Below are positions 95 through 29,215 of a DNA stretch of 30,285 nt, piece after piece. The notes beneath the pieces are model-generated. The model was not told where the DNA came from. It was given only the letters and a program-made list of their open reading frames with translations, and did not search any database. The translations under genes were made by a program, and so were the position numbers. The DNA is taken from IMG/VR virus record IMGVR_UViG_3300017752_000093, positions 1 through 30,285 of that record; one strand, written 5' to 3'. Within the stretch, counting starts at the first letter, position 1. Every line of letters starts with the position of its first letter. The stretch comes from a virus.

Positions 95-134
95 ATAACC
101 TTTATTTAACACGTTGACTTAATTATCAACAGGG

Positions 135-166
135 TAAATATACGAAAGATATCCCGGGTAGCCAAA
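135..166 (-). promoter_or_regulatory. Promoter P1, Bacteroidota sigma-A-like
   Basis: On the minus strand TTTG (166-163) is followed by exactly 20 bases and then TATATTTA (142-135). This fits the Bacteroidota vegetative promoter pattern (TTTG near -33, TAnnTTTG near -7). The flanks are also shared with P2 (324-355) and P3 (28040-28071): GGnTAC begins inside the -33 box and TCG abuts the -7 box in all three. Transcription would start near 128-130 and run into the gene at 94-1. Confidence 0.6.
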
Positions 167-2556: not shown

Positions 2557-2575
2557 ATGTTTGTTTTAAAGTTAA

Positions 2576-2584
2576 TGATAAATA
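2576..2584 (-). promoter_or_regulatory. ATATTTAT element before the GIY-YIG gene
   Basis: The coding strand reads TATATTTATCATTAA, the most divergent member of the recurrent ATATTTATAA family (A replaced by C at the ninth position). It lies 19 bases before the ATG at 2556. See the elements at 6429, 9285, 9304, 22609, 25944 and 28858. Confidence 0.4.
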
Positions 2585-2615
2585 TAACTAAAAACTATTA
2601 AATAGACAAGGAATT

Positions 2616-5600
2616 TTATCCTGCAGATATTTTTAATGTACCTCCATCATTCCAAAGTTGACCAGCATTTGCAGGATCTGATATAGGTAATCCTCTCATT
2701 ATTACAACAGAAGTTCCGCCTGCTGATCCACTTACTGTGAAGTTATTAACATGAGTTGTGCATGCGGCATGGGATGCAATATTTGATCCAATAATAAATG
2801 ATTTACAATGGTCTACAGTATTTTGATCTCCACCTAAGATACCACTGTAATCTGCGCCAGAACAAATTTCATTATTACTACCCGCACCAATAAATCCATA
2901 ATCCGCTGATGCTGAATTTCTACTACCTCCACCTATTACAGATACAACACTTCCACTAGTTGCATTAAATTGACCACCTCCAATAAAATTACAATTACCT
3001 GCTATAATATTAAAGCATCCACCTGCTATTGTACCGCCACTTCCAGTTGCAGTATTACGTAGTCCTCCAACTATTGCATTATAACTACCAGTTATACAGT
3101 TTTTAAATCCTGATCCAATAAAGTTATGTTGGCCTGAGTCTCCTGCTATAATACTATTTAGACTACCCCCAACTATAATAGATCTTGCACCTGATGCTGT
3201 GTTAAAGGTACCTACACCTATTAATGAAAAATTACCATCAATAATACAATTTTGACAACCTCCAATAATAGCATTACAAGATCCAGTAGTGAAATTTGAA
3301 TGACCGCCCACAATAGATGAATGTTTACTACTTATTGCATTACTTTGACCACTTCCTATAAAGTTTAAACCCTCGTTTGATCCATCGTTTATTGCATTTA
3401 AACAACCTCCTACTATAACATTCTTTCCCAATTGAGCAACATCAGTCGACGGAGAATAAGATGAAATTGTATTTTTAATTCCTGCTCCTATAAATGAATT
3501 ATTTTCACTACCAACATTACCAGTGTATGAATTAGATATACTATTACAGGTACCACTTACAATACTATTACCTCCTCCACCATCTGTTTGGATGCAATTG
3601 CAAATCCCTGCAACTATAGCACCATGGCTAGAAAAGGGACCAGTACTACTAAGGAGGTTTCTAGCTCCTCCTACTATAACATTACCTGTACCATTACTAA
3701 TAGTTTGTAGACAACCACCACCTATAAAATTAAAATATTCATAACCAGACACAGTATTGCCTTTACCTCCTACTATAACATTACATCCATAATACGTGCT
3801 TATCGAGTTACCACATCCACCTCCTATAAAATCATGAGCTCTAACAATACCACCACTCAAGCTATTTAATTGACCACCCACGATAGATGAGTGGTTATTA
3901 TTATTTATTGTATTACCTCGACCACCACCTATAAGGGCACCACAAGATAAGTCTATTAAATTATTAAAACCTGTTACTATTGCAGCATATTTAACTTCAT
4001 CTACAGAAGTACTATTACTAGCTGTTATATTATTATTATCTCCTGCCCCAATAAAAGCACTAATACCACCTGAGCCAATATTGTTGTTTTGACCACCTCC
4101 TATCATTCCTGCATAACCTGCTACTGAATTGCAACTACCACCAGCTATAGTTCCATAACCATTAGAAACTGTGTGGCAACCACCTCCAAGTATTGCTCCA
4201 TATTGACCACTAACTGTATTATTTCTCCCACCAAATATACTTGAATAATTGTTTGATACAGTATTACTAAATCCACCACCTATAATGTTAAATGATCCTC
4301 CTACTGAATTTTGTCCTCCTCCCACTACTGTTTGATGGCTATAATTAGATACAGTATTACAACAACCACCACCTACAAAATTGTAATCACTTGTATATCC
4401 ATTAGCACCATTATTTCCACGACCCCCAACAATGACATTATAATTTCCTCCACTTGAAGTATTTAATAATCCTCCTACAATAATATTATTACTGCCAGAT
4501 ATAGAATTTCTACAACCTGCACCAATAAATGAACCTAAATCAGTGCTTCCAGTGATGATATTACATATCCCACCTACTATAACTGATTTGTTAGAAGAAA
4601 TAGTATTTTTAGATCCTCCTCCTATAAAAGAACAATTTAATCCAACATTGCTTGAAGTTATATTATTACAACTTCCACCTACAATTGAATTATAACATCC
4701 ATCGATTATATTTTTTTCACCACCACCAATGAAACTTTTGTTACTAGAAAAAGATCCTGAAATTTTATTCTGGCAGCCTCCTACTATAGTTGTTGTATTA
4801 TCATTTAAACCAATAATATTTCCAAATCCTCCTCCAATAAAGGCACATGCACTTCCATTTTGTATTTGGTTAGATATTCCACCAACAATAGTATCATTAG
4901 AAGATGATATTTGGTTGCATTGTCCCGCTCCTATAAAACTATAAAAACCACAAACAGTATTTTTACATCCTGCTAAAATAGTACTTAAACCTTGGCAAAT
5001 TTCATTATTAATTCCTCCTCCGATAAAACTATTAGAATTATTTTTTAAACAGTTACAACCACCTGCAACAATAGCACCTCTAAAAGCACAAACAACATTT
5101 AACTCACCACCACCTATAAATGAACAATTACATACTGCTAAGTTAGACCTTCCACCTGCTACTACACTAACATTACCACAAGCTGTATTTTCGCAACCGC
5201 CACCTACAGTGCTAAAAGCCCCAGAAGCAGTATTTCTAACTCCACCTCCTATAAAACTACATCCTCCAGAAGCTACTTGAGAAACCCCACTAACAATAGC
5301 GGCATAATCCGCAGAACTTGTATTTAAAAAACCAGCTCCAATAAAGGCATTGGTATTAGTTGTTATATTTCTAAGACCACCTACTATAGTTGAACGGTTT
5401 TCTTCTATTAAATTTGATTCTCCTCCTCCTATAAAAGAAAGACACCCGTTAATTGTATTAGTTTGTCCACCAACTATTACACTTTTACATCCTGAATTCG
5501 CAATAGTATTATTAGTTCCAGATCCTATAAAACCAAAATCAATAGATACACGATTAAAATTACCATTTATTATAGAAGTATTACAAGAAAAATTTTCAAG

Positions 5601-6413
5601 ACAATTTGTTAGTCCTGTTCCTATAAAACCATATCTTGATGAGGATATGTGATTTCCTGATCCATTTATTATAGAAGAATATTGTGTGCATGTACATACA
5701 TCACTACCTGAAATTTTATTAGCATTTCCAGATCCTATAAAACCAAATTGTGAGGAAATAAAACTTGTTTGTGATGTTCCAATAAAATTATTACAAGCAT
5801 TATAATTACTTGCAGATATTACATTTGTAGCTCCACCCACTATTGATGATTTAGAACCATTAATAATACTATTACTATTACCTCCTACAATATTGCTAAA
5901 TGCTGTATCACCAAATCCAGCAGATGAAGTTATTGCAAGTTTTGTTCCTGCACCTATAAAAGAGCAATCTCCTGATGCTGTGCTAAGGGTACCTCCCCCA
6001 ATAAAAGTATGACAAATAGAAGCATTTATTTTATTAGTAGTACCAGAAGCTATAGCAGAACAACAACCTTGATTATCAAAATTGCCAAATTTATTAGGAA
6101 TTATATTATTATTACTAGATCCTGTTTTGTAAACAGTAAATCCACTTTCTTCTCCATCAACAATACTACTAGTAAGCATTTTAAACACATCACCTGTAGT
6201 ATCATCATATGCAAGAACATAATCTCGTGGTTGTTCTAGTAACTCATTTGAGCTAATCCCTACAGAACCTGTTATCTTAAAAGATCCTGATACCGAAATA
6301 TCGTATGCTGCCTGATTAGTAGATGAAAAGGCATCAACAGATTGTGAGACGTGCCATGAATGAACAACATCACCCTCTACTATTTGACTTTTATATTTTA
6401 ATTTTTGTGCCAT
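2616..6413 (-). CDS. Long repetitive tail-fibre adhesin, YadA-head-like repeats
   Basis: 1265 residues. Residues 1-115 form a non-repetitive N-terminus, likely the attachment end. From about 117 to 1220 the protein is an array of two alternating units, FIGGGxxNxIs and xSxIVGGxxNxIsG, at roughly 14-15 residues per unit. Some units read NTASG and STVGGG, exactly like the left-handed beta-roll repeats of YadA/Hep_Hag trimeric adhesins. The C-terminus, from about 1220, ends in an AGQLW-NDGG-TLKIS cap typical of phage fibre tips. No S74 chaperone domain is present. It contains about 50 Cys, many in the turn before GGG or after it, which is unusual for a phage fibre. It is the last gene of the structural block and the best candidate for the receptor-binding or virion-decorating fibre. 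Confidence 0.8.
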   Translation of the reverse strand: MAQKLKYKSQIVEGDVVHSWHVSQSVDAFSSTNQAAYDISVSGSFKITGSVGISSNELLEQPRDYVLAYDDTTGDVFKMLTSSIVDGEESGFTVYKTGSSNNNIIPNKFGNFDNQGCCSAIASGTTNKINASICHTFIGGGTLSTASGDCSFIGAGTKLAITSSAGFGDTAFSNIVGGNSNSIINGSKSSIVGGATNVISASNYNACNNFIGTSQTSFISSQFGFIGSGNANKISGSDVCTCTQYSSIINGSGNHISSSRYGFIGTGLTNCLENFSCNTSIINGNFNRVSIDFGFIGSGTNNTIANSGCKSVIVGGQTNTINGCLSFIGGGESNLIEENRSTIVGGLRNITTNTNAFIGAGFLNTSSADYAAIVSGVSQVASGGCSFIGGGVRNTASGAFSTVGGGCENTACGNVSVVAGGRSNLAVCNCSFIGGGELNVVCAFRGAIVAGGCNCLKNNSNSFIGGGINNEICQGLSTILAGCKNTVCGFYSFIGAGQCNQISSSNDTIVGGISNQIQNGSACAFIGGGFGNIIGLNDNTTTIVGGCQNKISGSFSSNKSFIGGGEKNIIDGCYNSIVGGSCNNITSSNVGLNCSFIGGGSKNTISSNKSVIVGGICNIITGSTDLGSFIGAGCRNSISGSNNIIVGGLLNTSSGGNYNVIVGGRGNNGANGYTSDYNFVGGGCCNTVSNYSHQTVVGGGQNSVGGSFNIIGGGFSNTVSNNYSSIFGGRNNTVSGQYGAILGGGCHTVSNGYGTIAGGSCNSVAGYAGMIGGGQNNNIGSGGISAFIGAGDNNNITASNSTSVDEVKYAAIVTGFNNLIDLSCGALIGGGRGNTINNNNHSSIVGGQLNSLSGGIVRAHDFIGGGCGNSISTYYGCNVIVGGKGNTVSGYEYFNFIGGGCLQTISNGTGNVIVGGARNLLSSTGPFSSHGAIVAGICNCIQTDGGGGNSIVSGTCNSISNSYTGNVGSENNSFIGAGIKNTISSYSPSTDVAQLGKNVIVGGCLNAINDGSNEGLNFIGSGQSNAISSKHSSIVGGHSNFTTGSCNAIIGGCQNCIIDGNFSLIGVGTFNTASGARSIIVGGSLNSIIAGDSGQHNFIGSGFKNCITGSYNAIVGGLRNTATGSGGTIAGGCFNIIAGNCNFIGGGQFNATSGSVVSVIGGGSRNSASADYGFIGAGSNNEICSGADYSGILGGDQNTVDHCKSFIIGSNIASHAACTTHVNNFTVSGSAGGTSVVIMRGLPISDPANAGQLWNDGGTLKISAG
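2760..6065 (-). repeat. Protein-level tandem repeat array in the adhesin
   Basis: The DNA shows dozens of degenerate repeats with a period near 42-45 bases. On the plus strand they appear as recurring CCTCCTATAAA or CCACCTATAAA (FIGGG codons) and CCTCCTACTATA (IVGG codons). Boundaries are approximate. The copies have diverged at synonymous and non-synonymous positions, so this is an old, selected protein array and not a recent DNA satellite. Confidence 0.8.
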
Positions 6414-6428
6414 TTTACTTGGTGTTTA

Positions 6429-6437
6429 TTATAAATA
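6429..6437 (-). promoter_or_regulatory. ATATTTATAA element before the adhesin gene
   Basis: The coding strand reads TATATTTATAATAAA, 15 bases before the ATG at 6413, in a 28-base gap. It is a full match to the recurrent family. The overlap with TATAAT would also give an ordinary -10-like hexamer here. Confidence 0.5.
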
Positions 6438-6441
6438 TAAA

Positions 6442-7512
6442 CTATCTATCTATATTTACTAAAATTGTAGTATCTGTTGTAGGAGATGATTGTAAAGGTT
6501 GAGCTAGTTTACCAACTGCTAATAATTGAAAATCTCCATCATATAACCCTACAGTTGTAATATAAGGTTCAAAATATGAACTTGTTACAAATCCTAATGG
6601 AACACCAATAGATGCCGTATTTTCAAAATTAAGATTACTTCCTGAGAATACTGTTGGGATTGTACTTCCTGTTATTGCACTTGGGTTTAATGTGTAGTTA
6701 AATTCATTTTCATCTATGGTACATTGATATTGTGTTTCAAATAATTTATAAGAACTAGAAAATGACATTGTAACATTAGATCCAGAAACAAAGGATTCAA
6801 TAAAATCAATTCTAGGTACTCTTGTTATTCCGTATTTCGATGATCCATAAACTGCGGTACCATATAAAGCTTCACTTGCATCTCCCTCCGTTTCTGAGTC
6901 AAATAAAGTTATTATACCGTGTTGGTATATAATATTACCATTCATATATTCATATGGAGAAGATGGGGAATTAGGGTGTAACCATAATAATCTTCCTTCA
7001 CCATCATCTTTAATAGAACCACTTATTCCTTCTAAGTAAAAAGAATTTGGTTGAATATAATCTCCAAATAATTTAGATGGAATTGATATTACACCTATTA
7101 TACTATTTGAAGATGTTGGGAATGTTTTACTAGGCCAAAGAGTTGTTTGTTCGTAGTTGTAAAAATTTGTTTGTTGAATTCCACCTATTAAAGTATTTCC
7201 TGCCTCATTAGCCCCTAAAAGAACACTAGATGTAATTGCATCACTTGTAAAACCAGCACTACTAGTTAAATAGTTTGAGTAATAAAGTTGTTTTATTGAA
7301 TCATAAATTAATACAGAAGGTACTTGTGAACCAGAAATAGTTCCTGATAGTTGGCTACCTGATATTAAGTAATCCCCTTTACTACCTGTAAATCTATTAA
7401 TGCCTACATTAGATCCAGTTAGGATATCTCCACCTTTAAAATAAAATCCTTTATTTACTTCAAGAGGTGATACTATTAAGTCCTGTGAATTGAATTGTTT
7501 GTAAGCGCTCAT
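6442..7512 (-). CDS. Beta-rich tail/baseplate protein, paralogue of the gene upstream
   Basis: 356 residues, no recognised enzyme motif. It is rich in Ser, Thr, Gly and short beta-prone segments, as in phage structural proteins. Its ends match those of the neighbour at 7518-8597. The N-terminus (FNSQDLIVS) parallels DPEDFVVS. The C-terminal 90 residues share ENEFNYTLNPSAITGST and a TTVGLY...LLAVGKLAQP segment. The centre differs. The start ATG is five bases past the previous stop, so it is translated from the same message. The ends probably dock to the baseplate or to each other, with the centre exposed. This role is inference from position between the gpH-like gene and the adhesin. Confidence 0.65.
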   Translation of the reverse strand: MSAYKQFNSQDLIVSPLEVNKGFYFKGGDILTGSNVGINRFTGSKGDYLISGSQLSGTISGSQVPSVLIYDSIKQLYYSNYLTSSAGFTSDAITSSVLLGANEAGNTLIGGIQQTNFYNYEQTTLWPSKTFPTSSNSIIGVISIPSKLFGDYIQPNSFYLEGISGSIKDDGEGRLLWLHPNSPSSPYEYMNGNIIYQHGIITLFDSETEGDASEALYGTAVYGSSKYGITRVPRIDFIESFVSGSNVTMSFSSSYKLFETQYQCTIDENEFNYTLNPSAITGSTIPTVFSGSNLNFENTASIGVPLGFVTSSYFEPYITTVGLYDGDFQLLAVGKLAQPLQSSPTTDTTILVNIDR

Positions 7513-7517
7513 TCATT

Positions 7518-8597
7518 TTAGAAATCTAGTTTTACTCGTATTAGAGCTTCTTTTGTAAAATCTTTTTGTATGGGTCTTGATAATTTAGCTACTGCTAATA
7601 AATCATTTGAATCATTATACATCCCAACTGTAGTAGGGAAGGTTTGTGGGTTATTAATAAAATAAGGATAAATCACTTCACCAGTTGAACCCGATATAAA
7701 TGATGGATTTTCTGTATAATTAAATTCATTGTTTCTTGCTCTAATAAATACATAATCTGAGGATATAGTTTCTTGGGAATTTAAGTCAAAGATATTATCA
7801 ACTCCAGACAAGCCTACTGATCCAGATATACAATTGTATAATTTTGTAGGATTACCTCCAAATTCGTCAGAACCTGTAACAGTTGCTATATTAATACCTC
7901 CTCCAGTTGGTGAATTATCATCTAAAGCAGCAGCATTAAGTAATATTGTAGAAATATCTGGGCAAAACCAACCATAAGAGCCACTATTTTGTGTAAAACC
8001 TGTTCCTCCCGATATACCTGCATTATATGCAACACCATCTGATCCACTAATTAATTGGTAAACTCTTTGGGTTCCATAAAAAGTAGGTAGGGTTACCATA
8101 CCTGAATTATCCGTTAATTTGATAACTGGGGTATTCGTTGCATTCTCATTACTACTTGATAAAAATAAATTTAAAGTACCAGGAAGTAATGATTGTTTAT
8201 ACCTTGCTCTTTCAATACTTATCACATAAAAGTCATTATCAGCACTACCTGTAAAAGTTTCACCCCAAACAAAATTAGAATTTTCATCTTCTAATATTAG
8301 GGTTCTATATTGCCCATAAATAGTTGTTGTGGGGGATACAAATGGTACTGAGGAATCAAAATTGACTCCTCCTCCACCATTTTTATTGGCATATGCAATT
8401 TGAAATTGAACAGCAGCTGTATCATCTAATGATGCTGTTTGATAAACATTTATATAATAAGGACCAGAGGTTCCTTCAGTTTGTGTAGATGATGTAAAGA
8501 AAGTATTTAAAGATGGGGAGTTATTACTCCAAACAGTTGAAGTTACTGAATCTGAACTTACTACAAAATCTTCCGGATCTAAACTTTTAAAAGCCAT
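7518..8597 (-). CDS. Beta-rich tail/baseplate protein, paralogue of the gene downstream
   Basis: 359 residues. It has the same terminal modules as its neighbour at 6442-7512: DPEDFVVS near the start and, at the end, NEFNYTENPSFISGST, a TTVGMY...LLAVAKLSRP segment and a final charged strand (IRVKLDF). The TVGxYN-LLAVAKLS ending is a pattern I associate with structural proteins of marine T4-like phages. The middle contains Gly-rich loops (NGGGG near residue 75, GGG near 228). No signal peptide or membrane segment is present. It starts a few bases after the gpH-like gene and is part of the 223-359-356 block. Function: minor tail or fibre-network component, unproven. Confidence 0.65.
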   Translation of the reverse strand: MAFKSLDPEDFVVSSDSVTSTVWSNNSPSLNTFFTSSTQTEGTSGPYYINVYQTASLDDTAAVQFQIAYANKNGGGGVNFDSSVPFVSPTTTIYGQYRTLILEDENSNFVWGETFTGSADNDFYVISIERARYKQSLLPGTLNLFLSSSNENATNTPVIKLTDNSGMVTLPTFYGTQRVYQLISGSDGVAYNAGISGGTGFTQNSGSYGWFCPDISTILLNAAALDDNSPTGGGINIATVTGSDEFGGNPTKLYNCISGSVGLSGVDNIFDLNSQETISSDYVFIRARNNEFNYTENPSFISGSTGEVIYPYFINNPQTFPTTVGMYNDSNDLLAVAKLSRPIQKDFTKEALIRVKLDF

Positions 8598-8601
8598 ATT
8601 T

Positions 8602-9273
8602 TTATGATGTTAATGATTGTTTTGTTACTGTAATTGGTACTGTTAATCTAGCTCCACTATCTAATCCAGTTACTGTTAAAGTTGTTCTTAATATTGAATT
8701 AGCACCAAATAGTGTGTTAACTGTTGTTGCTGTTAAATTAATTTGAGTTCCTATTACTGTTTTAGAAACACTAGTACCAATAGTTTGAGTTGCATTTTGA
8801 TTAGCTTCTATAGCTGCATCAGATTGTATGCCCTGCCCTGTAAAGGTACTTAATAATCTTATATCTCCTATTGTTGCACTATATCCTGATGTTTCAAATG
8901 TTTGATTATTTCCTAAATAATTTAATGTTTGTGGTGTTATTGCTAATTGAGCTCCTTGTTTTAAAGTAATAGCTGCATACCCTAAATCTAACACAGGTAA
9001 TTTAGCAGTACCTCGAGGTAAAGTAGTTAGTTTATATTTCATTATTTGAAGTTCGCTTGGAAATGCTTCAAGTAAAGGCATGTTATCAATTGCTTCACCA
9101 TAATAAGCTGATCCTGATGGGTGATTTGGATTATAAAGTGTATAATCAATTTCATCATCCCCTAAAGCAAATTGTGTAATTTGAAAAGAACCATCATTTC
9201 TTGCTAATAACTCTCTTCCTTTTGTAGTTAATATAGCGTCAACTGTTATTACTGCGTTATTTAAATATCCCAT
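8602..9273 (-). CDS. Tail-collar/gpH N-terminus-like fibre attachment protein
   Basis: 223 residues. The N-terminal segment (VDAILTTKGRELLARN, then FQITQFALGDDEIDY) parallels the N-terminal domain of P2-type tail-collar fibres, where a TTxGxxxLAxA helix is followed by a strand and AVGDG. This domain plugs fibres onto the baseplate. The second half is Thr/Ala-rich with alternating hydrophobics and looks like an Ig-like or beta-sandwich domain. It follows the gpI-like giant gene, as H follows I in P2. It is preceded by a 48-base gap holding two ATATTTATA elements and starts a three-gene block. The N-terminal match is by eye, so the family call is moderate. Confidence 0.6.
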   Translation of the reverse strand: MGYLNNAVITVDAILTTKGRELLARNDGSFQITQFALGDDEIDYTLYNPNHPSGSAYYGEAIDNMPLLEAFPSELQIMKYKLTTLPRGTAKLPVLDLGYAAITLKQGAQLAITPQTLNYLGNNQTFETSGYSATIGDIRLLSTFTGQGIQSDAAIEANQNATQTIGTSVSKTVIGTQINLTATTVNTLFGANSILRTTLTVTGLDSGARLTVPITVTKQSLTS

Positions 9274-9284
9274 GTTGTGTTTTT

Positions 9285-9312
9285 ATATAAATATTGTTAT
9301 ATGTTATAAATA
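9285..9312 (-). promoter_or_regulatory. Two tandem ATATTTATA elements before the gpH-like gene
   Basis: The coding strand carries ACATATTTATAACA (around 9304-9312) and CAATATTTATATAA (around 9285-9293), spaced 19 bases apart. The nearer one ends 11 bases before the ATG at 9273. This is the only gap in the window with two copies. Confidence 0.5.
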
Positions 9313-9321
9313 TGTATTCTA

Positions 9322-18165: not shown

Positions 18166-18174
18166 AAATTATAT

Positions 18175-18765: not shown

Positions 18766-19916
18766 TATCTATTAATAACTTTGAAATAATAATTATCATC
18801 CTTTACTATTGTACTCCCACTAATAGTGGTTTGTATTAAAATTTTATAATATCTTTCGGGTTGTAGCCCATTCATATAAATATCAAAATAATTACTTTGA
18901 CTATCACAGCTTATTTTAGTAAATTCGGGGTCAAATTCTATTAAAGTTTCATTTGTATCTAAATCTTTAACTGAATACATTGAATTACTATTTAAATAAT
19001 GATTTTGTGTATCTAAAGAAGATGTTAAGAATGTTCTTTTTGGGAAATCAGGTCTTATATTTAATCTGAACCTGTTTACACTTTCCTCATAAAATATTCC
19101 TGGGTTGCTGTCTAAAGCAACATACAAATCTGTTGTTTGAATTGGAGGTAAACTTCCTGTTTCAAAGGAAGAATCATCCCATTTTATTTCTAATGCAGGA
19201 GGATATATTGTATTAGTATCAACTGAATAGAATTGCATTATGGGTTGTATAGCATCAGTAGTACTAAATTCTATAGTATCTTCCCATTTTACTAAAAATC
19301 CATTATTTTTTATATTAGTATACCCACCAATAGACTTTGAACTTGAATACCAAACTTTAACTATATCAGTAACAGAGGCATTAAGATCTTTATCGGATCT
19401 TAAAGTAAAAGATTGAGTAACATATAAATTAGTATTATAAGGATCATCTGATCCTGTATACCAAGTTCCACCTCCAGCCGTATTACTTCCAGAAAAAGAA
19501 GCTGTTGCATAAGGTTGAAAATTGGAAGTTGCCCATTCTTGACCACCATCAAATGTTTGATTTTTCCAACTACAACCATTAGTAGTAAAAGGTGAATCTA
19601 AATAAGTACCCGAGCCATTATTCCATGATCCTGATACGGGGTATATTTCTAATTCAGTATCAAAAATAACACCTTGAGCATTAGCTATATAACATTTTAA
19701 ACTACTAGAAAATTGAGTTCCCCCTACTTTATTATCAATTATATCTTCTATTTCAGTTTGATCAAACTCAACTAAATATCTAAATACTTGAGGTACGGGG
19801 TTTATGTTTACATTAAGATTACCTACTTCTATAATAGGGTCTATCCCAGTATTCATAGTAGGGTAAAATGAATACATTGTAGCATCTTGCAAAGGAAAAA
19901 TTTTATATACTGCCAT
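18765..19916 (-). CDS. DNRLRE-like beta-sandwich baseplate/tail protein
   Basis: 383 residues. The N-terminus follows the DNRLRE pattern: an Asp-Ala-Thr turn, YPTMNTG, a strand with VGN, then RYLVEFDQTEIEDI, a long hydrophobic strand matching the family's 'LLxFDLSxIP' segment. Residues ~180-250 contain the second strand set (VTDIVKVWY, GFLVKWED). The C-terminal third (residues ~260-380) is another beta domain ending in YYFKVINR. DNRLRE domains occur in surface and fibre proteins. Its place directly after gp6 in a coupled operon argues for a baseplate component. It starts 10 bases after gp6 and has no signal peptide. Confidence 0.6.
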   Translation of the reverse strand: MAVYKIFPLQDATMYSFYPTMNTGIDPIIEVGNLNVNINPVPQVFRYLVEFDQTEIEDIIDNKVGGTQFSSSLKCYIANAQGVIFDTELEIYPVSGSWNNGSGTYLDSPFTTNGCSWKNQTFDGGQEWATSNFQPYATASFSGSNTAGGGTWYTGSDDPYNTNLYVTQSFTLRSDKDLNASVTDIVKVWYSSSKSIGGYTNIKNNGFLVKWEDTIEFSTTDAIQPIMQFYSVDTNTIYPPALEIKWDDSSFETGSLPPIQTTDLYVALDSNPGIFYEESVNRFRLNIRPDFPKRTFLTSSLDTQNHYLNSNSMYSVKDLDTNETLIEFDPEFTKISCDSQSNYFDIYMNGLQPERYYKILIQTTISGSTIVKDDNYYFKVINR

Positions 19917-19926
19917 AATTTATTTT

Positions 19927-21816: not shown

Positions 21817-22223
21817 TATCTAAAATTTAATTCTAAAGTATCATTTATACCTGTATTAGGAATACTGTATGTTATATTTATTTGTATTGTATTTTCATTA
21901 ACAGTTCTTAAGACTTCAACTTCTTCAACTAAAATATTTGGAAAATTATCATTTAATTTTGTTTGAATATCATCTTTTATAAAATCTAAATTTCCAGTTT
22001 CTACTTGAGTAAAAATATATCTTCTTAAACCTGCACCAAAAAGTGGGTTTTCTATTCTTTCCCCTGGGTTTGTTAAAAAATAATTAATTAAATTATTCTT
22101 AATGGCATCTTTAGTTTGGTAATTAGGTTGAAACACCCCAGGTGCGCTAAATGGTAGATTAACACCAATAGCAACTCTAGGTCGTAAATCATTAGGATAT
22201 ACTCTTCTTGCTCCAAATGCCAT
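21816..22223 (-). CDS. gp25: Baseplate wedge protein gp25 (GPW/gp25 family)
   Basis: 135 residues, matching T4 gp25 (132). The family signature is clear: NNLINYFLTNPGERIENPLF (residues 43-62), then GLRRYIFTQ, followed by the strand EVEVLRTV and the C-terminal beta hairpin. gp25 clamps the wedge and starts sheath polymerisation. It is coupled to gp6 by a one-base overlap and lies five bases after the small helical gene. Despite its historical 'lysozyme' label the family is structural. Confidence 0.92.
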   Translation of the reverse strand: MAFGARRVYPNDLRPRVAIGVNLPFSAPGVFQPNYQTKDAIKNNLINYFLTNPGERIENPLFGAGLRRYIFTQVETGNLDFIKDDIQTKLNDNFPNILVEEVEVLRTVNENTIQINITYSIPNTGINDTLELNFR

Positions 22224-22228
22224 AATTA

Positions 22229-22594
22229 TTACCCTTTACTATTCATTAAACCCATTATTTGGTCCATACTTACATTTCCCTGAGGTAAACTACCATTAGG
22301 TGAAGTTGTATCTACAGGACCACCCATTTGTAAAGGTACATCTGCTGAAGTTGCACTTAATGTACCATTAGCTCCTGGCATCATTCCTCCTAGTACATTT
22401 TGTATATTTTCTCTCATTGCTACTCTTTTATCTTCTGGTAAAGGTTGTTGTTTCACTTGTTGAGTAGGTTGAATAACTTCTTGTACTTGTTGTTTAGGAG
22501 CACGAACTGCTTCTATTAAAATGTCTTTCATTTCCTCTTGTATTGCCTCTTTTACGGCCTCTTTCACAATAGTTTTTAATTGACTTAATTTCAT
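22229..22594 (-). CDS. Small protein, helical N-terminus and Gln-rich linker, unknown
   Basis: 121 residues. The first 30 residues form an amphipathic charged helix (KTIVKEAVKEAIQEEMKD). Residues 33-55 are Gln/Val/Pro-rich and probably disordered. The C-terminal half is Gly/Pro/Ser/Met-rich with short helices. No domain is recognised. It begins the gp25-gp6 block, five bases before gp25, and has a full ATATTTATAA element upstream. Position suggests a structural, scaffolding or chaperone role in baseplate assembly, which the sequence itself does not prove. Confidence 0.55.
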   Translation of the reverse strand: MKLSQLKTIVKEAVKEAIQEEMKDILIEAVRAPKQQVQEVIQPTQQVKQQPLPEDKRVAMRENIQNVLGGMMPGANGTLSATSADVPLQMGGPVDTTSPNGSLPQGNVSMDQIMGLMNSKG

Positions 22595-22608
22595 GTTGTA
22601 TTGATTTA

Positions 22609-22617
22609 TTATAAATA
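22609..22617 (-). promoter_or_regulatory. ATATTTATAA element before the gp25/gp6 block
   Basis: The coding strand reads TTAATATTTATAATAAA, 14 bases before the ATG at 22594 in a 28-base gap. It precedes the run of six closely spaced or overlapping genes from 22594 to 9322. Confidence 0.5.
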
Positions 22618-22622
22618 TTAAA

Positions 22623-24308
22623 CTAGTTAGCTTTTAAATTATTTTGTTGTATATAAAATACAAGTTCATCTATTAAAATTTGATCTGATGATGAAAATGA
22701 AGGTTCTCCTTTTAATAATGTAATTCCCCTGGAGTCTTTAGCTACAGCAAATCTTCTTTTTAAAGTTCCAACAGGGTTTTTATTATCAGTTTCAACACTA
22801 AAAATAAATCCATTTACATTACCAATTATGGGGTTTCCATCTTCAGCTTCTTCTTCAGCTAAATCTAATAATTCTTGATTAATTGCTTCTAATTCTAAAT
22901 TTGTTACACCATTTTCTTCAGCACACTCTTGGGCCATTTGATCAACCGATTTTAATAATAATATTACTGTTGTAACCCCTGCTATTAAAAATATTAATGA
23001 AACTAAAGTAGCTCTACTTGTTCCTTTATTTGCTTCTTCTAATTTTTCTAATTCATCATTAATATGCTGTAATTTAGCTGTAAACGAATAAGGTTGGGCA
23101 AATATTAAACCACCAAAATCTTTAGCAGGAAAAACCCCTACTGCTTGGGGTGCTGGGAGAGCATCTAGTGCTAGTCTCACCCCTCTTAAAACATTAGCTA
23201 AAGCTGTAAAAGCTAAGGCTAAAGCTGTGTTAATAGTTATTGCCCTAAATAATTGGTTTAATTGTCTAACAACTCTATTTCTAGTTCTTATTACATTGTT
23301 TAAAGTATCGGGTGTTGGGCATGTTTTTCTATTTGCTTGTGTTAATTTAGAAATACCAAAAGCTAATAATAAACTAATTGCTAAAGGAATTAATTTTGTT
23401 TTAATATTATCTACTAATTTACCAATACTAAATTTTTTAGCAAATATAAGTTTATCTAAAACATCCATAGCTAAGGCAGCAACCCCAGCTTGTGCTAAAT
23501 CAATACCATCATTAAATTTTTGAGAAATTTCTTCTGCTGCTTCACTTAAATTAATTAAACTAGTTAATGATAAATTTGTTTTTATTGTTTTATCACCATT
23601 TATAATAGCTTGTGTTCCAGGGATATACCCACTTTTAGAATAAAGTAAACCAAAAACAAGTGGGGTTTTTTGATTTTCGGGGATAATAGGAACCTTAACT
23701 TTAATTGAAAAATTTCCTTGTTTATCTGTTCTAGCAGTTTGTCCTGGGATAGGAATAAAAATTAGATCATTTAAATCAAGTGAAACTTTATTAGGGAGTA
23801 ATTCTTCACTTACATTTAAAGGATTATCGGCACCAACTTTTTCATCTACAAAATCCTGATTAACTCCTAATGTTACTTTAGCTCCTTGTAATGGAGTATT
23901 TGTATTTTTATCCTGCAGTCTACCTACAATTGTATAAGTTTGAAGTGTAGGAATTTGACTTTTTAATTTGGCTTTTAAAAGTGATATTTCTGCTCTTACT
24001 TTTTTTTCAACATCTACTTTTGTTATATTAGCTTCGTCTAAACGTTCTTGTAATTTTTCTTTAGCAGACAATCTTTTTTGTCTTCTTTTTTCTCTTTTTT
24101 GTTCACGAGTCAAATTAGAACCCAGGGATAAATTAATATTATCTAAGGATGTTTCATCTAAGGTAGATAAATCAATGTTAAATTTAGAAGAAAGATCTTG
24201 TATTCTATTAGTTATATCATTTAAATTAAGTTGGCTTCCTAACAATGATTTACCCGCAGGGGTTTGAAGAAATTGTTGTGATAATTGTAAAAGTGCTTCT
24301 TCCCCCAT
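22623..24308 (-). CDS. Baseplate-region protein, Ig-like domain plus hydrophobic helices
   Basis: 561 residues. Residues 1-120 are helical and highly basic (KREKRRQKR near 71-79). Residues ~122-250 form a carboxypeptidase-regulatory-like Ig fold: TIVGRLQDKNTNTPLQGAKV, then TARTDKQGNFSIKV, the classic 'G.V.d..tg.pl.GA.V...  T..G.F.i' pattern. Three hydrophobic segments follow at ~305-321, 355-373 and 433-452, long enough to span a membrane. A coiled-coil-like stretch lies at 411-428 and an acidic region at 470-495. It sits between the spike and gp25, sharing one base with the spike stop (TAATG). Candidate roles are a hub, tape-measure-like or membrane-penetrating ejection protein; the length is near T4 gp29 (590) but the Ig domain does not fit gp29. 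Confidence 0.55.
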   Translation of the reverse strand: MGEEALLQLSQQFLQTPAGKSLLGSQLNLNDITNRIQDLSSKFNIDLSTLDETSLDNINLSLGSNLTREQKREKRRQKRLSAKEKLQERLDEANITKVDVEKKVRAEISLLKAKLKSQIPTLQTYTIVGRLQDKNTNTPLQGAKVTLGVNQDFVDEKVGADNPLNVSEELLPNKVSLDLNDLIFIPIPGQTARTDKQGNFSIKVKVPIIPENQKTPLVFGLLYSKSGYIPGTQAIINGDKTIKTNLSLTSLINLSEAAEEISQKFNDGIDLAQAGVAALAMDVLDKLIFAKKFSIGKLVDNIKTKLIPLAISLLLAFGISKLTQANRKTCPTPDTLNNVIRTRNRVVRQLNQLFRAITINTALALAFTALANVLRGVRLALDALPAPQAVGVFPAKDFGGLIFAQPYSFTAKLQHINDELEKLEEANKGTSRATLVSLIFLIAGVTTVILLLKSVDQMAQECAEENGVTNLELEAINQELLDLAEEEAEDGNPIIGNVNGFIFSVETDNKNPVGTLKRRFAVAKDSRGITLLKGEPSFSSSDQILIDELVFYIQQNNLKAN

Positions 24309-25585
24309 TATATTGATTTTACAATTTTAGATTTATAATTTTTAATATTATTTAACATTTTAGAAGCTTGTGTTTTTACAGAGCTAGCGGGACCACCACT
24401 AACATATATTTTTGGTTCAGTTGATAACGTTTGACCTAAAGTTTGTAATTTTCTTAATAAATCTGCAAGATCATCTAAAAAAGTATCTCCTAGAACTATA
24501 GATTCATTAGCTGTAGAATCCCCTAATCTAATATTATTTTTAGAGGATTGTAAAACAACATCTCCTTCTTGAGAATATATTCCAATTGTATTTGTTGATG
24601 TCAATGAAATTACTCCTTCGGAATTTAATAATATACTACCTGTAGAATTAGCATTAAAAACTAATCTATTAGAATTTAGCATTACTTGACTTCCCTGAAA
24701 TGAACCTATTGACTCTGGTTTGTTATTTTTTATTGAAGGGTTGTTTGTAATTGTTGTTACTAAGGGGATTGATTGGTTAGACGTTAAATAAATCGAAGAT
24801 AAGTCTTTATTTATATCTTCAATAATAGGTAAATATCCCTCTTCACTAGCATCATTAGGTTGACCATTTCTTAATATTGTTATAGGGTTACCATCTTCTC
24901 CTGTACTAGACCAATTATTACCATATAAAATACTATCGGTTTTTGCAGTACTACCAAATCTAATACTATTACCCCATCTACCTTCAGTAATAATATCCCC
25001 AGCAAAAGCTAATAAAGGATGGATATTTGATCTTTCAATAAAAGTACCTCCTACTAGAGGAGAATTATAAGCATATTCTACTTCTTCATCAGAAGATTTT
25101 CTGGTTTGCCCCTGTTCTATTGCTTGGTAACTTTTTTGTTGTGAAGGTTGGGTTTGGTTATTAGCTTGTAAATTTGGGTATGCGTTTAAATGAGGAGTGT
25201 TCCAAATAGATATTGGATTTATATAAAAATATTTTTTTGTATTACTATTTAAATTTACTTGATTATTAGGTAGTAAAAATAATAATACTAATTCATTAAC
25301 TAAGGGATAGTTTTTTAAATAAGGAATTAGGGGAGATGCTACTTTTGCAATTTTAGATGAAATTGAAGGTGAGCCCTCAACTGCTTCAAAAAATATAGTT
25401 CCAACAGAACTCCATTCACCATAAATCTCAAATTTAGGGTGTTGATCATCCAAGATAATATCCGTTACTCTAGCAGATATCATATTAGAAGCTAAAGTAT
25501 TAAGTTGTTGTTGTGTAGCTGATTGGTTATTCCTCCCTATATTTAATTGAGAGTTAACCGAAGCAAATCCATATTTATGCGCCAT
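24308..25585 (-). CDS. gp5: Baseplate central spike protein (gp5/gpV-like), no lysozyme domain
   Basis: 425 residues. The N-terminal half looks like the spike OB-fold: ARVTDIILDD, then VGTIFFEAVEG and LVNELVLLFLLP, with the PLVxExVxLFxLP phrase typical of phage spike OB domains. The C-terminal half (residues ~305-375) is a run of short strands with Ser/Asn/Gly turns (MLNSNRLVFNANSTGSILLN onward), as in the triple beta-helix needle. The T4 gp5 lysozyme domain is absent. The last 45 residues are basic and may be a cap or extra domain. It overlaps the upstream gene by 11 bases and the next one by one base. The call rests on pattern and position in front of gp25. Confidence 0.7.
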   Translation of the reverse strand: MAHKYGFASVNSQLNIGRNNQSATQQQLNTLASNMISARVTDIILDDQHPKFEIYGEWSSVGTIFFEAVEGSPSISSKIAKVASPLIPYLKNYPLVNELVLLFLLPNNQVNLNSNTKKYFYINPISIWNTPHLNAYPNLQANNQTQPSQQKSYQAIEQGQTRKSSDEEVEYAYNSPLVGGTFIERSNIHPLLAFAGDIITEGRWGNSIRFGSTAKTDSILYGNNWSSTGEDGNPITILRNGQPNDASEEGYLPIIEDINKDLSSIYLTSNQSIPLVTTITNNPSIKNNKPESIGSFQGSQVMLNSNRLVFNANSTGSILLNSEGVISLTSTNTIGIYSQEGDVVLQSSKNNIRLGDSTANESIVLGDTFLDDLADLLRKLQTLGQTLSTEPKIYVSGGPASSVKTQASKMLNNIKNYKSKIVKSI

Positions 25586-25931
25586 CTTTCTTTTGTTCGA
25601 AATTAGTATTAAGTTTATCTAATTCCTCCATTAATTGTTGTTTTTCTTCTTCCGTTATCCCCATTGATTCTTCACCACCACTATTATTAAGCGCACGCTG
25701 TACTATAGTGGCCATTTTAATTAATTGTTCATCGTTACGAACGCCAATTTCCATATATTCTTTAATAAGTGGAACAATCAAAGTAGCATCACCTATGTCA
25801 TTTATAAGTGGTTTTAACTCTGAAATTAAACCCGTTATTTGGGTTTCTTTTTTCTTTTGATTATCGTAAATTTCGCTTAGGATATCCGAGAATTTTTTCT
25901 TTTTAAATACAATGTTGTCTAATGATCCCAT
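25575..25931 (-). CDS. Small helical protein, unknown, first gene of the spike block
   Basis: 118 residues, mostly helical and charged. It starts MGSLDNIVFKKKKFSDIL, with a long helix from 15 to 45, an acidic region near 85-105 and a coiled-coil-like end. No domain is recognised. It overlaps the spike start by 11 bases, so its translation is tied to the spike. A full ATATTTATAA element precedes it. A baseplate chaperone is possible by position only. Confidence 0.55.
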   Translation of the reverse strand: MGSLDNIVFKKKKFSDILSEIYDNQKKKETQITGLISELKPLINDIGDATLIVPLIKEYMEIGVRNDEQLIKMATIVQRALNNSGGEESMGITEEEKQQLMEELDKLNTNFEQKKDGA

Positions 25932-25943
25932 AATGTTATTTTG

Positions 25944-25952
25944 TTATAAATA
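25944..25952 (-). promoter_or_regulatory. ATATTTATAA element before the spike block
   Basis: The coding strand reads CCATATTTATAACAAAA, 12 bases before the ATG at 25931, in the 37-base gap that separates the sigma-factor operon from the baseplate genes. Confidence 0.5.
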
Positions 25953-25968
25953 TGGATATAGGAAGGGG

Positions 25969-26688
25969 TTAGAATCTAGCGTAACCGTTTTCTAAATAAA
26001 AAATGTATTGTTCTTTAAATATACCATGAAGTTTATCAGCTATTTTAGTTATTTTAGGAGTTTTTACATCTACCATTTCTCTTATGTAGATATAAAGTGC
26101 TTTTTTATTAAATACTTCTAATGTTTCTCTTTTACGGAATAATTCTAATATTGCATCCGCTATTTGAGCATCATTTTTTTTAGGAAATAATTCAAAAATA
26201 TTTTCTGATACATGATCTACAAATATATCCACATACTTATCTAAATCACTTTTTACTCTTTCATCACCTTGTGTATAAACATGGGTTGAATTCTCTCCAG
26301 TTAATACTTCAACTCCAACTTTTTTGATTTTTTTATTGTAATTTTTAGTATTATATAAAATTAACCAACGTTTTACTATAGTACCAAAATAAGAATATGC
26401 TTTTGCTCCTCTTGTGGGATCAAATAAATGTATTTTGGATAGTAAAAAGGTTATTATTTCATGCTGTAAATGTTCTAAATTAGACACTTCAGTATGATAA
26501 AATTTAAAAGTATGGATTATATTCTGAGTAAGTTTAAAAAAGGCATAATGTATGTAAGCTTCATATATTTTACTTCTTTTTTCTGAATCTTCAACAGGAT
26601 CTAAGTTATTATATTTTACTATATAATCTTCTGTTTCTTGGGTAAAATAATTTTTACTTTTTTTCCTTCTTTTTCTTTTTTGGATCAT
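25969..26688 (-). CDS. gp55: Late-transcription sigma factor (T4 gp55-like)
   Basis: 239 residues (T4 gp55 is 185). After a basic N-terminus (KRKRRKKSK) comes a sigma region-2-like segment: helix 40-60, LEHLQHEIITFLL (71-83), then LFDPTRGAKAYSYFGTIVKR (89-108), which closely follows the FDP..G.KA.SYF..I.K pattern of phage gp55 proteins. The C-terminal part (170-235) is helical with FRKRETLEVF and an HTH-like KITKIADKLHGIF, extra relative to T4 gp55, which lacks region 4. It directs RNA polymerase to late promoters. It is the last gene of the operon from P3 and overlaps its upstream neighbour by ATGA. Confidence 0.85.
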   Translation of the reverse strand: MIQKRKRRKKSKNYFTQETEDYIVKYNNLDPVEDSEKRSKIYEAYIHYAFFKLTQNIIHTFKFYHTEVSNLEHLQHEIITFLLSKIHLFDPTRGAKAYSYFGTIVKRWLILYNTKNYNKKIKKVGVEVLTGENSTHVYTQGDERVKSDLDKYVDIFVDHVSENIFELFPKKNDAQIADAILELFRKRETLEVFNKKALYIYIREMVDVKTPKITKIADKLHGIFKEQYIFYLENGYARF

Positions 26689-26972
26689 TTTTCTTTGGGG
26701 TTAGTTTTAAATTGAGATAAACCTGTTTGTAAAACCTTTATTTCATTAAAAAACCAACCTATTTCATCATCGCTTTTGAACATGCCTTTTTCATCTATTT
26801 GTTCTAATCTTTTTTCTGAAAATGTGACTTGTTCATCTACTTTATTGATAAATTCCTGTTGAGAAACTATAATATCTTCTGCTCTTTCATTTTTACGTAA
26901 AAGGTTAAAAGTCGTGTACCCAAGGATAACGACTGATAAACCTAATATTGTAATAGTAATTTCTAATATCAT
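26685..26972 (-). CDS. Small membrane-anchored protein, unknown
   Basis: 95 residues. Residues 4-23 are a hydrophobic helix (ITITILGLSVVILGYTTF), followed by Arg/Lys (LLRKNER), so the C-terminus should face the cytoplasm. Residues 30-60 are coiled-coil-like, and FKSDDEIGWFFNEIK (65-79) is a short motif I associate with small conserved proteins of T4-like phages. It overlaps both neighbours by ATGA junctions, tying it to the HD protein and the sigma factor. Function unknown. Confidence 0.6.
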   Translation of the reverse strand: MILEITITILGLSVVILGYTTFNLLRKNERAEDIIVSQQEFINKVDEQVTFSEKRLEQIDEKGMFKSDDEIGWFFNEIKVLQTGLSQFKTNPKEK

Positions 26973-27745
26973 AAACTATCTAACATACTTTTTAATCCAG
27001 GGCTTGCTATTGTATTAAGTGCCTTGGATTTAGAACTAGTTTTCGATTGTAATGTATAATTTTTCTTTGGCTGTGCCACGCTATCCTTAGAAAACTTTGG
27101 AAGCCATTCAATTTCAAACTCAATACGAGCAGCCATCATATCAGCTTGATGTAAAATATATGGTAAAGATGTGCGAGGTTTTTGTTCGGGCATAAATGCC
27201 TTTAAATATTTCTCATTTGCAGCATCATATAAACCATCATGTGTTTGAATTGCTACCATTTCATTAAATGTGTATGAAATATCATGTTGTTGAAGTAAAA
27301 ATAAACTACGGTCTGGTACTGAACAAAATGCTAATTTTTTATTAAACATATAATCTTCTCCTAATTTATCTCTCCTCCATTTATCAGTTTGTGGGATATA
27401 CGCCTCATGGTCTTTATCTCCCATTTTACCTAGATCATGGTTAATAGCAGAAAATACTAATTCTTCAATAGTAAATGTAGTTACATCACAACCCTCTTCT
27501 TTCCAAAGTTCAAATTGTTTAAGAGCACATCTAACTACTCGATTAACATGATCTACATAACCCCCGGGGAATGCCGAATGGTATTCTTTTTTATGAGCAG
27601 CAGGCATTAATATAACTCGCTCTTCATATTTTTTATAAAAATTAAGCAATTTATCTTTTCTATCCCCTTTATCTGATATATGGATTTTAATATTATCTAA
27701 AAATATTTCCCAATTAGATTGAATCTGTTCTGCTGATAACTTCAT
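26969..27745 (-). CDS. HD-domain metal-dependent phosphohydrolase
   Basis: 258 residues from the ATG at 27743-27745. The frame stays open upstream to a TTG at 27796, but that would overlap the 67-residue gene by 50 bases, whereas the ATG lies one base after its stop. HD metal ligands are visible: His66 (GGYVDHVNRV), His103-Asp104 (INHDLGK) and Asp202 (HQADMMAARIE), with further His at 154 and 169. The family hydrolyses phosphomonoesters or diesters of nucleotides. Substrates range from dNMP/dNTP to cyclic dinucleotides, so nucleotide-pool remodelling or signal removal are both possible; the sequence does not decide. It is coupled to the membrane protein downstream by ATGA and travels with the sigma gene. 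The last 45 residues are basic and Ser/Lys-rich, likely disordered. Confidence 0.8.
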   Translation of the reverse strand: MKLSAEQIQSNWEIFLDNIKIHISDKGDRKDKLLNFYKKYEERVILMPAAHKKEYHSAFPGGYVDHVNRVVRCALKQFELWKEEGCDVTTFTIEELVFSAINHDLGKMGDKDHEAYIPQTDKWRRDKLGEDYMFNKKLAFCSVPDRSLFLLQQHDISYTFNEMVAIQTHDGLYDAANEKYLKAFMPEQKPRTSLPYILHQADMMAARIEFEIEWLPKFSKDSVAQPKKNYTLQSKTSSKSKALNTIASPGLKSMLDSL

Positions 27746-27746
27746 A

Positions 27747-27950
27747 TTAACGTAGTGAGGTATTTTGTTCTTGATGTGAACGTGGTTCTCTTTCAATCAT
27801 AGTTCTAATATCATCGGCTATACCTTGAGCTTTAACTATGTTAGCTCTATATGATTCAATTGGTTCCTGAGTGTTTACTATACGTTGAAGATTAATCAAT
27901 GTATGATCTAAAGTTTCTAACTTTCTATATAACAATTCTCTATTTCTCAT
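27747..27950 (-). CDS. Small helical protein, first gene of the sigma operon
   Basis: 67 residues: a single long helix-rich protein (NRELLYRKLETLDHTLINLQ) with QEPIESYRANIVKA (28-41), a motif I recall from short conserved proteins of T4-like phages of unknown function. It is followed after one base by the HD gene. It is preceded by a purine-rich leader of about 85 bases from promoter P3. The stop codon position decides the HD start, as noted there. Confidence 0.65.
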   Translation of the reverse strand: MRNRELLYRKLETLDHTLINLQRIVNTQEPIESYRANIVKAQGIADDIRTMIEREPRSHQEQNTSLR

Positions 27951-28035
27951 AATTTATATTATTAACAGGGTGTTCCTTAACCCCTTATTACCTTTATTCC
28001 CATCCCTTCTTATTCCCTTTTCTTACAAAACCTGT
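27951..28035 (-). promoter_or_regulatory. Purine-rich 5' leader of the sigma-factor operon
   Basis: The putative transcript from P3 begins with about 85 non-coding bases. Between 28025 and 27973 the coding strand is nearly all A and G, with GGGAATAA twice and a third AATAAGGGG. No ORF is visible. The other genes in the window have leaders of 11-40 bases or overlap their neighbour, so this is exceptional. It may be a translation-control site, an RNA-binding target or simply spacer. Confidence 0.4.
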
Positions 28036-28039
28036 AATA

Positions 28040-28071
28040 CTAATGTACGAGGGATACTTTGGGTATCCTAA
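28040..28071 (-). promoter_or_regulatory. Promoter P3, upstream of the sigma-factor operon
   Basis: On the minus strand TTAG (28071-28068), 20 bases, then TACATTAG (28047-28040). It shares with P1 and P2 the TT-GG-TAC start and the TCGTA-ATT end at identical spacing. The -33 box is one base off consensus (TTAG for TTTG). A 6-bp GGATAC/GTATCC inverted repeat (28067-28051) lies between the boxes. The promoter begins eight bases past the stop of the 141-residue gene. Confidence 0.5.
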
Positions 28072-28078
28072 TTATTTT

Positions 28079-28504
28079 TTAAATTTCCTTAACTATTTTC
28101 TGGATTTTGTGAAGATGTGCACATTTTTCATATTCTTCATAACCTTCAAAAAAACTAATTGAACTAACTAATACTTTTAACAATGCTTTAGGTTCAAAAT
28201 TTATAATAGCGTTTAAATCATCCTCATCATTTACACTAATATTTTTAATATAAGACCAAGCTCTATTATAAACAGTAAATTCAGATGCTTCCTTTGTAGA
28301 CTCTACATTATAATTAGGTTGTTCTTTTTTTAGGAACTTTTCTAATTTACGATGAAATACTTCATGATTTTGAATTAATTTGACAAACATTCCTATTTTA
28401 GCGAAAGGACCGTTCATAAAATCCCTTATCTCGGATTTAGTTTTATCGTCATTAATTTCTTTCCCATCTACAAATAATTGAAATATTTTATCTTTATCTA
28501 TCAT
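28079..28504 (-). CDS. Unknown 141-residue helical protein
   Basis: No recognised domain. The protein is charged and helical throughout, with aromatic and Lys-rich segments (FHRKLEKFLKKEQPNY, residues 50-65) and a hydrophobic stretch LLKVLVSSISFFEG (108-121). It lacks a signal peptide. The start overlaps the SNase-like gene by ATGA, so the two are translated together. It is the last gene before promoter P3. Confidence 0.55.
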   Translation of the reverse strand: MIDKDKIFQLFVDGKEINDDKTKSEIRDFMNGPFAKIGMFVKLIQNHEVFHRKLEKFLKKEQPNYNVESTKEASEFTVYNRAWSYIKNISVNDEDDLNAIINFEPKALLKVLVSSISFFEGYEEYEKCAHLHKIQKIVKEI

Positions 28505-28845
28505 CTTTTACCTCCAAAATATTCTACAGCATGTCCTTCTGTAATTAATAAATCATTTAACTTAACATCTCCTAAAAATATCTCTCCCAAACATCTACCA
28601 TATTTACCTACACCCTGAGAGTGAAGTATGAATTCATTATCATGTTTTATTAAAATCTCTTTAACAAATGCTTTAGCAGCTAATCCTCTTGCTTTTTCAT
28701 CTAAATCTCTAGTACGAGACTCGGCAGCATTAATACCAACCAATCTAATTCTAATTTTTTTCCAAGTATCAAAACCAAGATCGATAGTAGCATCAATGGT
28801 ATCTCCATCTACTACTCTTTCACATTTTGCTTTATAGATATACAT
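28501..28845 (-). CDS. Staphylococcal nuclease-like (SNase) protein
   Basis: 114 residues, a minimal SNase OB-fold. Motifs: VVDGDTIDA (Asp13, Asp15), IRIRLVGINAAESRT (Arg34, Asn39, Glu42) and KYGRCLGEIF (Arg84). Relative to S. aureus nuclease, D21, R35, E43 and R87 have matches, but D40 is Asn, T41 is Ala and P42 is Ala. The typical GIDTPE is therefore changed to GINAAE, which may lower activity. No signal peptide is present, so it acts in the cytoplasm, perhaps in host DNA degradation. Similar short SNases are common in T4-like marine phages. It is preceded by a full ATATTTATAA element. Confidence 0.85.
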   Translation of the reverse strand: MYIYKAKCERVVDGDTIDATIDLGFDTWKKIRIRLVGINAAESRTRDLDEKARGLAAKAFVKEILIKHDNEFILHSQGVGKYGRCLGEIFLGDVKLNDLLITEGHAVEYFGGKR

Positions 28846-28857
28846 AATAACGTTTAG

Positions 28858-28866
28858 TTATAAATA
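28858..28866 (-). promoter_or_regulatory. ATATTTATAA element before the SNase gene
   Basis: The coding strand reads GCATATTTATAACTAAA, 12 bases before the ATG at 28845, in a 25-base gap. It is the only family member upstream of an apparently non-structural gene besides the GIY-YIG nuclease. Confidence 0.5.
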
Positions 28867-28870
28867 TGCA

Positions 28871-29213: not shown

Positions 29214-29215
29214 AA

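Follow-up and report, generated by a model that had tools for sequence, protein, structure and literature searches.

The motif ATATTTATAA, found between genes of this viral DNA, is very likely a variant of the T4-type late promoter, with a box that reads TATTTATA rather than TATAAATA. It is probably read by the gp55-like sigma factor encoded at 25969-26688. The stretch analysed here (the window; 30,285 nucleotides) comes from a large myovirus; this 30-kb fragment has all of its long genes on the minus strand and encodes gp25-like and gp6-like baseplate proteins, tail fibre-like proteins, a primase, an exonuclease and an endonuclease of the GIY-YIG type. Flavobacterium phage vB_FspM_immuto (immuto) is the nearest isolate, with 45% identity by the gp6-like protein, and the host of the window phage is therefore probably a marine member of the Bacteroidota. 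No structured RNA or tRNA was detected in the window using Rfam and ARAGORN.

Five exact copies of ATATTTATAA were present in the window, each in a gap between genes and on the coding strand (Table 1). Allowing one mismatch gave the seven copies reported in the initial annotation, five exact and two with a single mismatch, and these occupied all six gaps of 25–60 bases. The copies had been said to end 11–19 bases before the ATG, which is correct for six of them; of the pair preceding the gene at 9273, the upstream copy ends 30 bases away. For the second box of this pair, the distance from the core to the start of the ATG is 13 bases. As described earlier, the exact motif was missing from the shorter gaps and overlaps of the window (gaps of 10 bases or less, overlapping junctions and the 18-base gap), and two longer gaps, 27951-28078 and 29084-29215, were also devoid of it. 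The copy before the gene at 2556 is the weakest of the seven and is doubtful, since its mismatch lies inside the 8-base core and the motif was absent from both of the more distant orthologues that were compared.

Table 1. Candidate promoter elements and the putative sigma factor gene in the window.
Feature	Position	Strand	Sequence	Remarks
Host-type (early) promoter, candidate	129..145	-	TCGTATATTTACCCTGT	Downstream of exonuclease gene, faces next gene; of one class with TTCGTATATTyA, a motif discovered de novo in the family
Weak, uncertain late box copy	2576..2585	-	ATATTTATCA	One mismatch, inside core; before GIY-YIG endonuclease gene at 2556
Late promoter box, candidate	6429..6438	-	ATATTTATAA	Exact; before 1265-aa repetitive gene at 6413 (probable tail fibre/adhesin)
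Second box of pair before 9273	9285..9294	-	ATATTTATAT	One mismatch to 10-mer; 8-base core TATTTATA intact
Upstream late promoter box of tandem pair, candidate	9304..9313	-	ATATTTATAA	Exact; before gene at 9273
Late promoter box, candidate	22609..22618	-	ATATTTATAA	Exact; before 121-aa gene at 22594, just upstream of gp25-like/gp6-like baseplate genes
Late promoter box, candidate	25944..25953	-	ATATTTATAA	Exact, core TATTTATA; before 118-aa gene starting 25931, directly after sigma gene
gp55-like sigma factor, 239 aa, proposed reader of boxes	25969..26688	-		Identified by phrog_234, Sigma70_r2, AlphaFold fold, orthologues
Host-type (early) promoter look-alike	28034..28050	-	TCGTACATTAGTATTAC	In leader of operon ending in sigma gene
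Late promoter box, candidate	28858..28867	-	ATATTTATAA	Exact; before SNase-like gene at 28845

Scanning of the whole window on both strands with one mismatch showed no enrichment of the motif (23 seen, 29 expected), and the signal therefore resides in location and strand, making the gaps the decisive test. In the nine gaps of 15–150 bases (503 bases), the coding strand carried five exact copies and seven with at most one mismatch, and the opposite strand carried none of either kind. Dinucleotide shuffling of these gaps gave means of 0.06 exact copies and 0.71 copies with at most one mismatch, and the observed counts were not reached in any of 2000 shuffles. The motif is thus commoner than in shuffled AT-matched intergenic DNA, in line with the initial annotation.

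Two scans of viral contigs provided 70 and 80 loci, and about 110 related loci were used to determine directionality. In gaps of the close group, 254 exact copies (not independent, many of the loci being overlapping or close relatives) pointed toward the next gene, with none pointing away and none antisense. Only 14 exact copies were found in coding DNA of this group, on the coding strand, with gaps accounting for just 5% of the sequence. The pattern of the full set was repeated by 39 non-redundant sites (<80% alike). Among distinct sequences, the exact motif was present in 97 of 114 codirected gaps of 20–39 bases and in none of 71 gaps shorter than 10 bases, and the majority of copies in the close group ended 10–14 bases before the ATG. 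A position weight matrix built from sites with two mismatches was too noisy against Markov shuffles when score alone was used; the bias for direction and for gaps still held.

Alignment of the sites gave the consensus YATATTTATAAYWAAA, in which the conserved flanks are one-sided, with YWAAA downstream, and an AT-rich segment (AYWAAA) directly follows the box. There was no -35 element, information being low at every upstream column of the 39 non-redundant sites. The motif had been taken at first for a T4 late promoter in reversed orientation. This reversal is not needed, because TATTTATA is two substitutions from TATAAATA in the same direction, and the change of the central AA to TT is what yields the reverse complement. 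The element also has one-sided flanks and a directionality of 254:0, and we rejected a reverse-oriented T4 promoter as unnecessary.

The core was conserved at orthologous positions. For the gap after the sigma gene, 21 non-redundant orthologues reaching as far as immuto (53% protein identity) were compared; 19 of them retain TATTTATA, while their flanking sequences and the spacing to the ATG vary. TATTTATA was also present before 81 of 83 orthologues of the 22594 gene and 26 of 31 orthologues of the SNase-like gene at 28845. The box was found in both orthologues compared for the gene at 9273, in contig G001 and in immuto (gp107), and the gene at 6413 had no orthologue outside the window among the loci compared.

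The association with gene class was analysed in the complete immuto genome and in G001, a contig of 138,667 bases. Unseeded motif discovery by expectation maximization (EM) in immuto gave mTATTTATAAwwAA for 78-160 kb and TTCnTATATTTAGr for 1-78 kb, both well above shuffled controls, so that de novo discovery recovered the late element in the structural half. The structural half of immuto has 32 gaps, 15 of which contain the core TATTTATA; elsewhere in the genome the core occurs in 6 of 59 gaps (Fisher p 1.5e-4). The immuto genes behind the box include those for TerL, portal, tail sheath, tail tube, hub and tape measure, as well as the gene that lies ahead of the endolysin-holin pair. In G001, the box is found ahead of the orthologues of sheath, tube, tape measure, gp107 and gp117, and of the gene before the endolysin. 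EM on distant relatives recovered only a Shine-Dalgarno signal. On T4's own 15 gaps it recovered a Shine-Dalgarno signal and not the TATAAATA box, so T4 could be used as a control only by locating its boxes directly.

The early half of immuto carries a different, host-like element, TTCnTATATTTAG, with a few late-type boxes as exceptions. The distance to the ATG differed between the two elements in both genomes, being mostly 20–37 bases for the early-type element and mostly 10–16 bases for the late box. The former spacing would give leaders near 20–30 nt, fitting those of a Flavobacterium host; leaders in F. psychrophilum have a median of 24 bp (PMC9723704). In the 1-78 kb region of immuto (L155-L156), the early-type motif appeared as TATATTTAG, and 8-mers of the string GGTATCAATAATTAAAAC were also among the most enriched in gaps, which suggests that these gaps share an operator or leader element.

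A 128-base leader (27951-28078, minus strand) lies before the operon whose last gene encodes the sigma. The L130 orthologue of the host-type look-alike in this leader reads TCGTATATTTATATCAC, and TATTTATA was found in the leader in only 4 of 41 non-redundant orthologues. A host-type look-alike at the sigma operon and a late box at the very next gene would suit a switch from early to late expression. The leader also contains a long purine-rich stretch, GGGAATAAGAAGGGATGGGAATAAAGGTAATAAGGGG...ACCCTG, which is recognisable in many orthologues; the leader may be regulatory.

The protein encoded at 25969-26688 belongs to a family in which 14 of 20 members matched phrog_234, 'late sigma transcription factor' (best E 7e-6), and 13 of 20 weakly matched Sigma70_r2. 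Residues ~12-122 of the AlphaFold model matched sigma domain 2 (1or7_B, Z 9.5, 2.3 A over 91 residues). Orthologues were present in immuto (48% identity) and G001, where they were the sole matches to phrog_234 in a search with T4 gp55 as positive control. No significant match was obtained when the protein was compared with T4 gp55 alone by hhalign, and sequence searches of the PDB gave nothing useful. A conserved stretch, NKKALYIYIREMVDVKTPKITKIADKL, lies beyond the sigma-2 domain in the C-terminal part (26029-26109, minus strand); it has the look of a helix-turn-helix and could contact extra bases flanking the box.

We searched the C-terminal ends for the hydrophobic/acidic clamp-binding motif; T4 gp55 ends in SLDFLYEAND and the window sigma in YLENGYARF. 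The gp45 clamp families PF02916 and PF09116 were not found in G001 and immuto and were present in T4, though a divergent clamp could escape such a search. Coupling to replication of the T4 type is thus not supported, though it may exist.

Homologues of the sigma also occur in more distant phages that lack the 13-base motif, namely Microcystis phage Mel-JY01, LR756508, G002 and G003. The co-occurrence of sigma and motif is thus imperfect, and either the distant sigmas must read something else or another factor contributes. A simple correspondence between the motif and the presence of the sigma was considered when tblastn returned nothing in Mel-JY01 and LR756508, but was rejected, since a profile search found homologues in both and the motif is absent there. 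The Mel-JY01 variant ATATTTATT was likewise dismissed as a counterpart of the motif, as it shows no strand bias.

No enrichment of Shine-Dalgarno sequences was seen in the window, G001 or immuto, and the box lies close to the start codon. We measured spacing to the A of the ATG, counting from the base after TATTTATA. The 155 distinct cases fell into two groups, with 16 at 2–6 bases (15 of these at 4–6), a single case at 7–10, and all remaining cases at 11 or more, where the distribution peaks at 14. Two peaks were also evident within one orthologous gene, that at 22594, in which the spacing was 4–6 in 15 loci and 15–17 in 67, with none between. The first residues of these orthologues are conserved, and most have no other in-frame ATG nearby.

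In T4, the first base of the late box is numbered -13 (PMC2988020); the box then ends at -6, and transcription would start at the sixth base after it. Applied to the phages studied here, this geometry predicts late mRNAs that are leaderless or carry leaders of about 5–11 nt. The two-peaked spacing fits a start six bases after the box, provided that leaders of 1–4 nt are avoided. The lower peak would then represent leaderless mRNA, and the empty zone the avoided leaders of 1–4 nt.

Taken together, location, gene class, conservation and geometry lend good support to the initial annotation's proposal of a late promoter that is read by a gp55-like sigma and gives a very short leader. The lineage in question, large myoviruses that include Flavobacterium phage immuto and many marine contigs, probably infects Bacteroidota. 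We suggest that in these phages YATATTTATAAYWAAA would be recognised by the RNA polymerase core of the host together with the phage sigma. Within it, TATTTATA would act as a -10-type box in place of TATAAATA, the AT-rich DNA that follows would melt next, and transcription would start about 6 bases beyond the box; there is no -35 element. The promoter would abut the gene, since Bacteroidota do not use Shine-Dalgarno sequences, and late mRNAs would thus have no leader or one of only about 5–11 nt. Early expression of the sigma would turn on the virion genes. A fuller picture can be offered only tentatively, though it is quite conceivable: a T4-type late system working in Bacteroidota that lack Shine-Dalgarno sequences, with switched box specificity and leaderless or nearly leaderless late mRNAs, in which the AUG is at +1 or the leader is at least about 5 nt, lengths of 1–4 nt are avoided, and the gp45 clamp may not be needed.

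T4 late promoters consist of an 8-bp box followed by AT-rich DNA, with no -35 element (PMC2988020). The promoters described here share with those of T4 (gp55/gp33/gp45) the 8-base TATA-type box, the AT-rich downstream segment, the lack of a -35 element and the position before virion genes, and both systems have a phage-encoded sigma with the gp55-type domain-2 fold. Six of the eight bases are common to TATAAATA and TATTTATA, the central AA being TT here, and the box of these phages has additional conserved flanks, A before it and AYWAAA after. It lies mostly 10–16 bases from the ATG, in contrast to the usual 24–35 in T4, where in 8 of 9 late genes inspected the box ended 24–35 bases before the ATG with a Shine-Dalgarno sequence between; no such sequence intervenes here, and no gp45 clamp was detected. 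The sigma is also longer, at 239 aa compared with 185 for T4 gp55. Lineage-specific versions of one late box are likewise seen in the T4-related phages KVP40, 44RR, S-PM2 and Aeh1. The Aeh1 promoter is changed at positions -13/-12 (PMC2988020), whereas in the phages studied here the altered bases are the central ones, and the Bacteroidota are a new host group for this system in the literature found. The genes also resemble TA-led (leaderless) bacterial genes (PMC3160421) in having a -10-type box about 10–12 bases before the start codon and a very short or missing leader; they differ in that the box is phage-specific and the spacing is two-peaked within one orthologous gene.

Other explanations for the motif were weighed against this reading. 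Chance matching in AT-rich gaps would agree with the lack of window-wide enrichment at one mismatch, but is refuted by the gap shuffles, the 254:0 strand bias and the conservation of orthologous sites, and carries practically no weight. It is also quite improbable that the motif is an ordinary host promoter, that is, the Bacteroidota -7 element TAnnTTTG, here as TATATTTA, read by the main sigma of the host. The late motif shares TATATTT with the sigma-A promoter of Flavobacterium and other Bacteroidota (TTTG / TAnnTTTG), a type to which the phages' early promoters also belong; ATATTTA is common to the late motif and TTCnTATATTTAG, and the -33 element of Bacteroidota is often poorly visible (PMC6847099). 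However, the host element almost always has T at -12 and G at -5 (PMC6847099), and the late box requires neither, its first position being T in only about 40–50% of sites and its -5 position almost always A. The conserved downstream TAA-YWAAA has no counterpart in the host element, and the late and early motifs differ by gene class and spacing to the ATG in two genomes.

A signal for translation or RNA processing, such as an A/U-rich ribosome-binding or cleavage site replacing the Shine-Dalgarno sequence, was the other reading given in the initial annotation, and we regard it as very improbable. It would account for the location of the motif just upstream of the ATG in a group that has no Shine-Dalgarno sequence and prefers adenines at -3, -6, -12 and -13 (PMC6847099). 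Yet genes behind short gaps and overlaps, and most early genes, are translated without the motif, and among orthologues the spacing to the same start codon switches between 4–6 and 15–17, a shift of ten bases, while the sequence stays fixed. At the closest spacings the box, as a promoter, would fall outside the mRNA, and a strong ten-base consensus is unlike a loose A-rich context. That the motif is a late promoter with a different reader, such as a phage sigma or activator that escaped recognition, or host polymerase in modified form, is unlikely, though the weak homology of the sigma to gp55 and the sigma homologues in phages without the motif would be in its favour. The 25969-26688 protein is the only late-sigma-family match in G001 and immuto, and its predicted fold contains sigma domain 2. 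No single-subunit RNA polymerase (T7-like, PF00940) was detected in either genome, in a search that had no positive control.

In the open-access literature we found no description of TATTTATA as a late promoter; the one relevant match examined was to a T4 test promoter, read on its complementary strand. A T4-type late promoter of this form would make late promoters readable across a large group of uncultured marine phages, so that early and late genes in contigs could be told apart. The specificity of gp55-type sigmas for the box can be tested by setting orthologues that read TATTTATA beside orthologues that do not. The two-peaked spacing would constitute a natural experiment on the minimum length of a bacterial leader in a host group without Shine-Dalgarno sequences.

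The 1265-aa protein encoded at 2616-6413 (minus strand) contains dozens of imperfect FIGGG/IVGG...N repeats and is a probable tail adhesin. In the gaps next to the SNase-like and 67-aa genes, one related locus (L127) has a tRNA-like piece (GGGTTCGATTCCCA) directly before the late box. A second locus (L092) carries such a piece (GGGTTCGATTCCCA) in a leader, at a place where the window has none.
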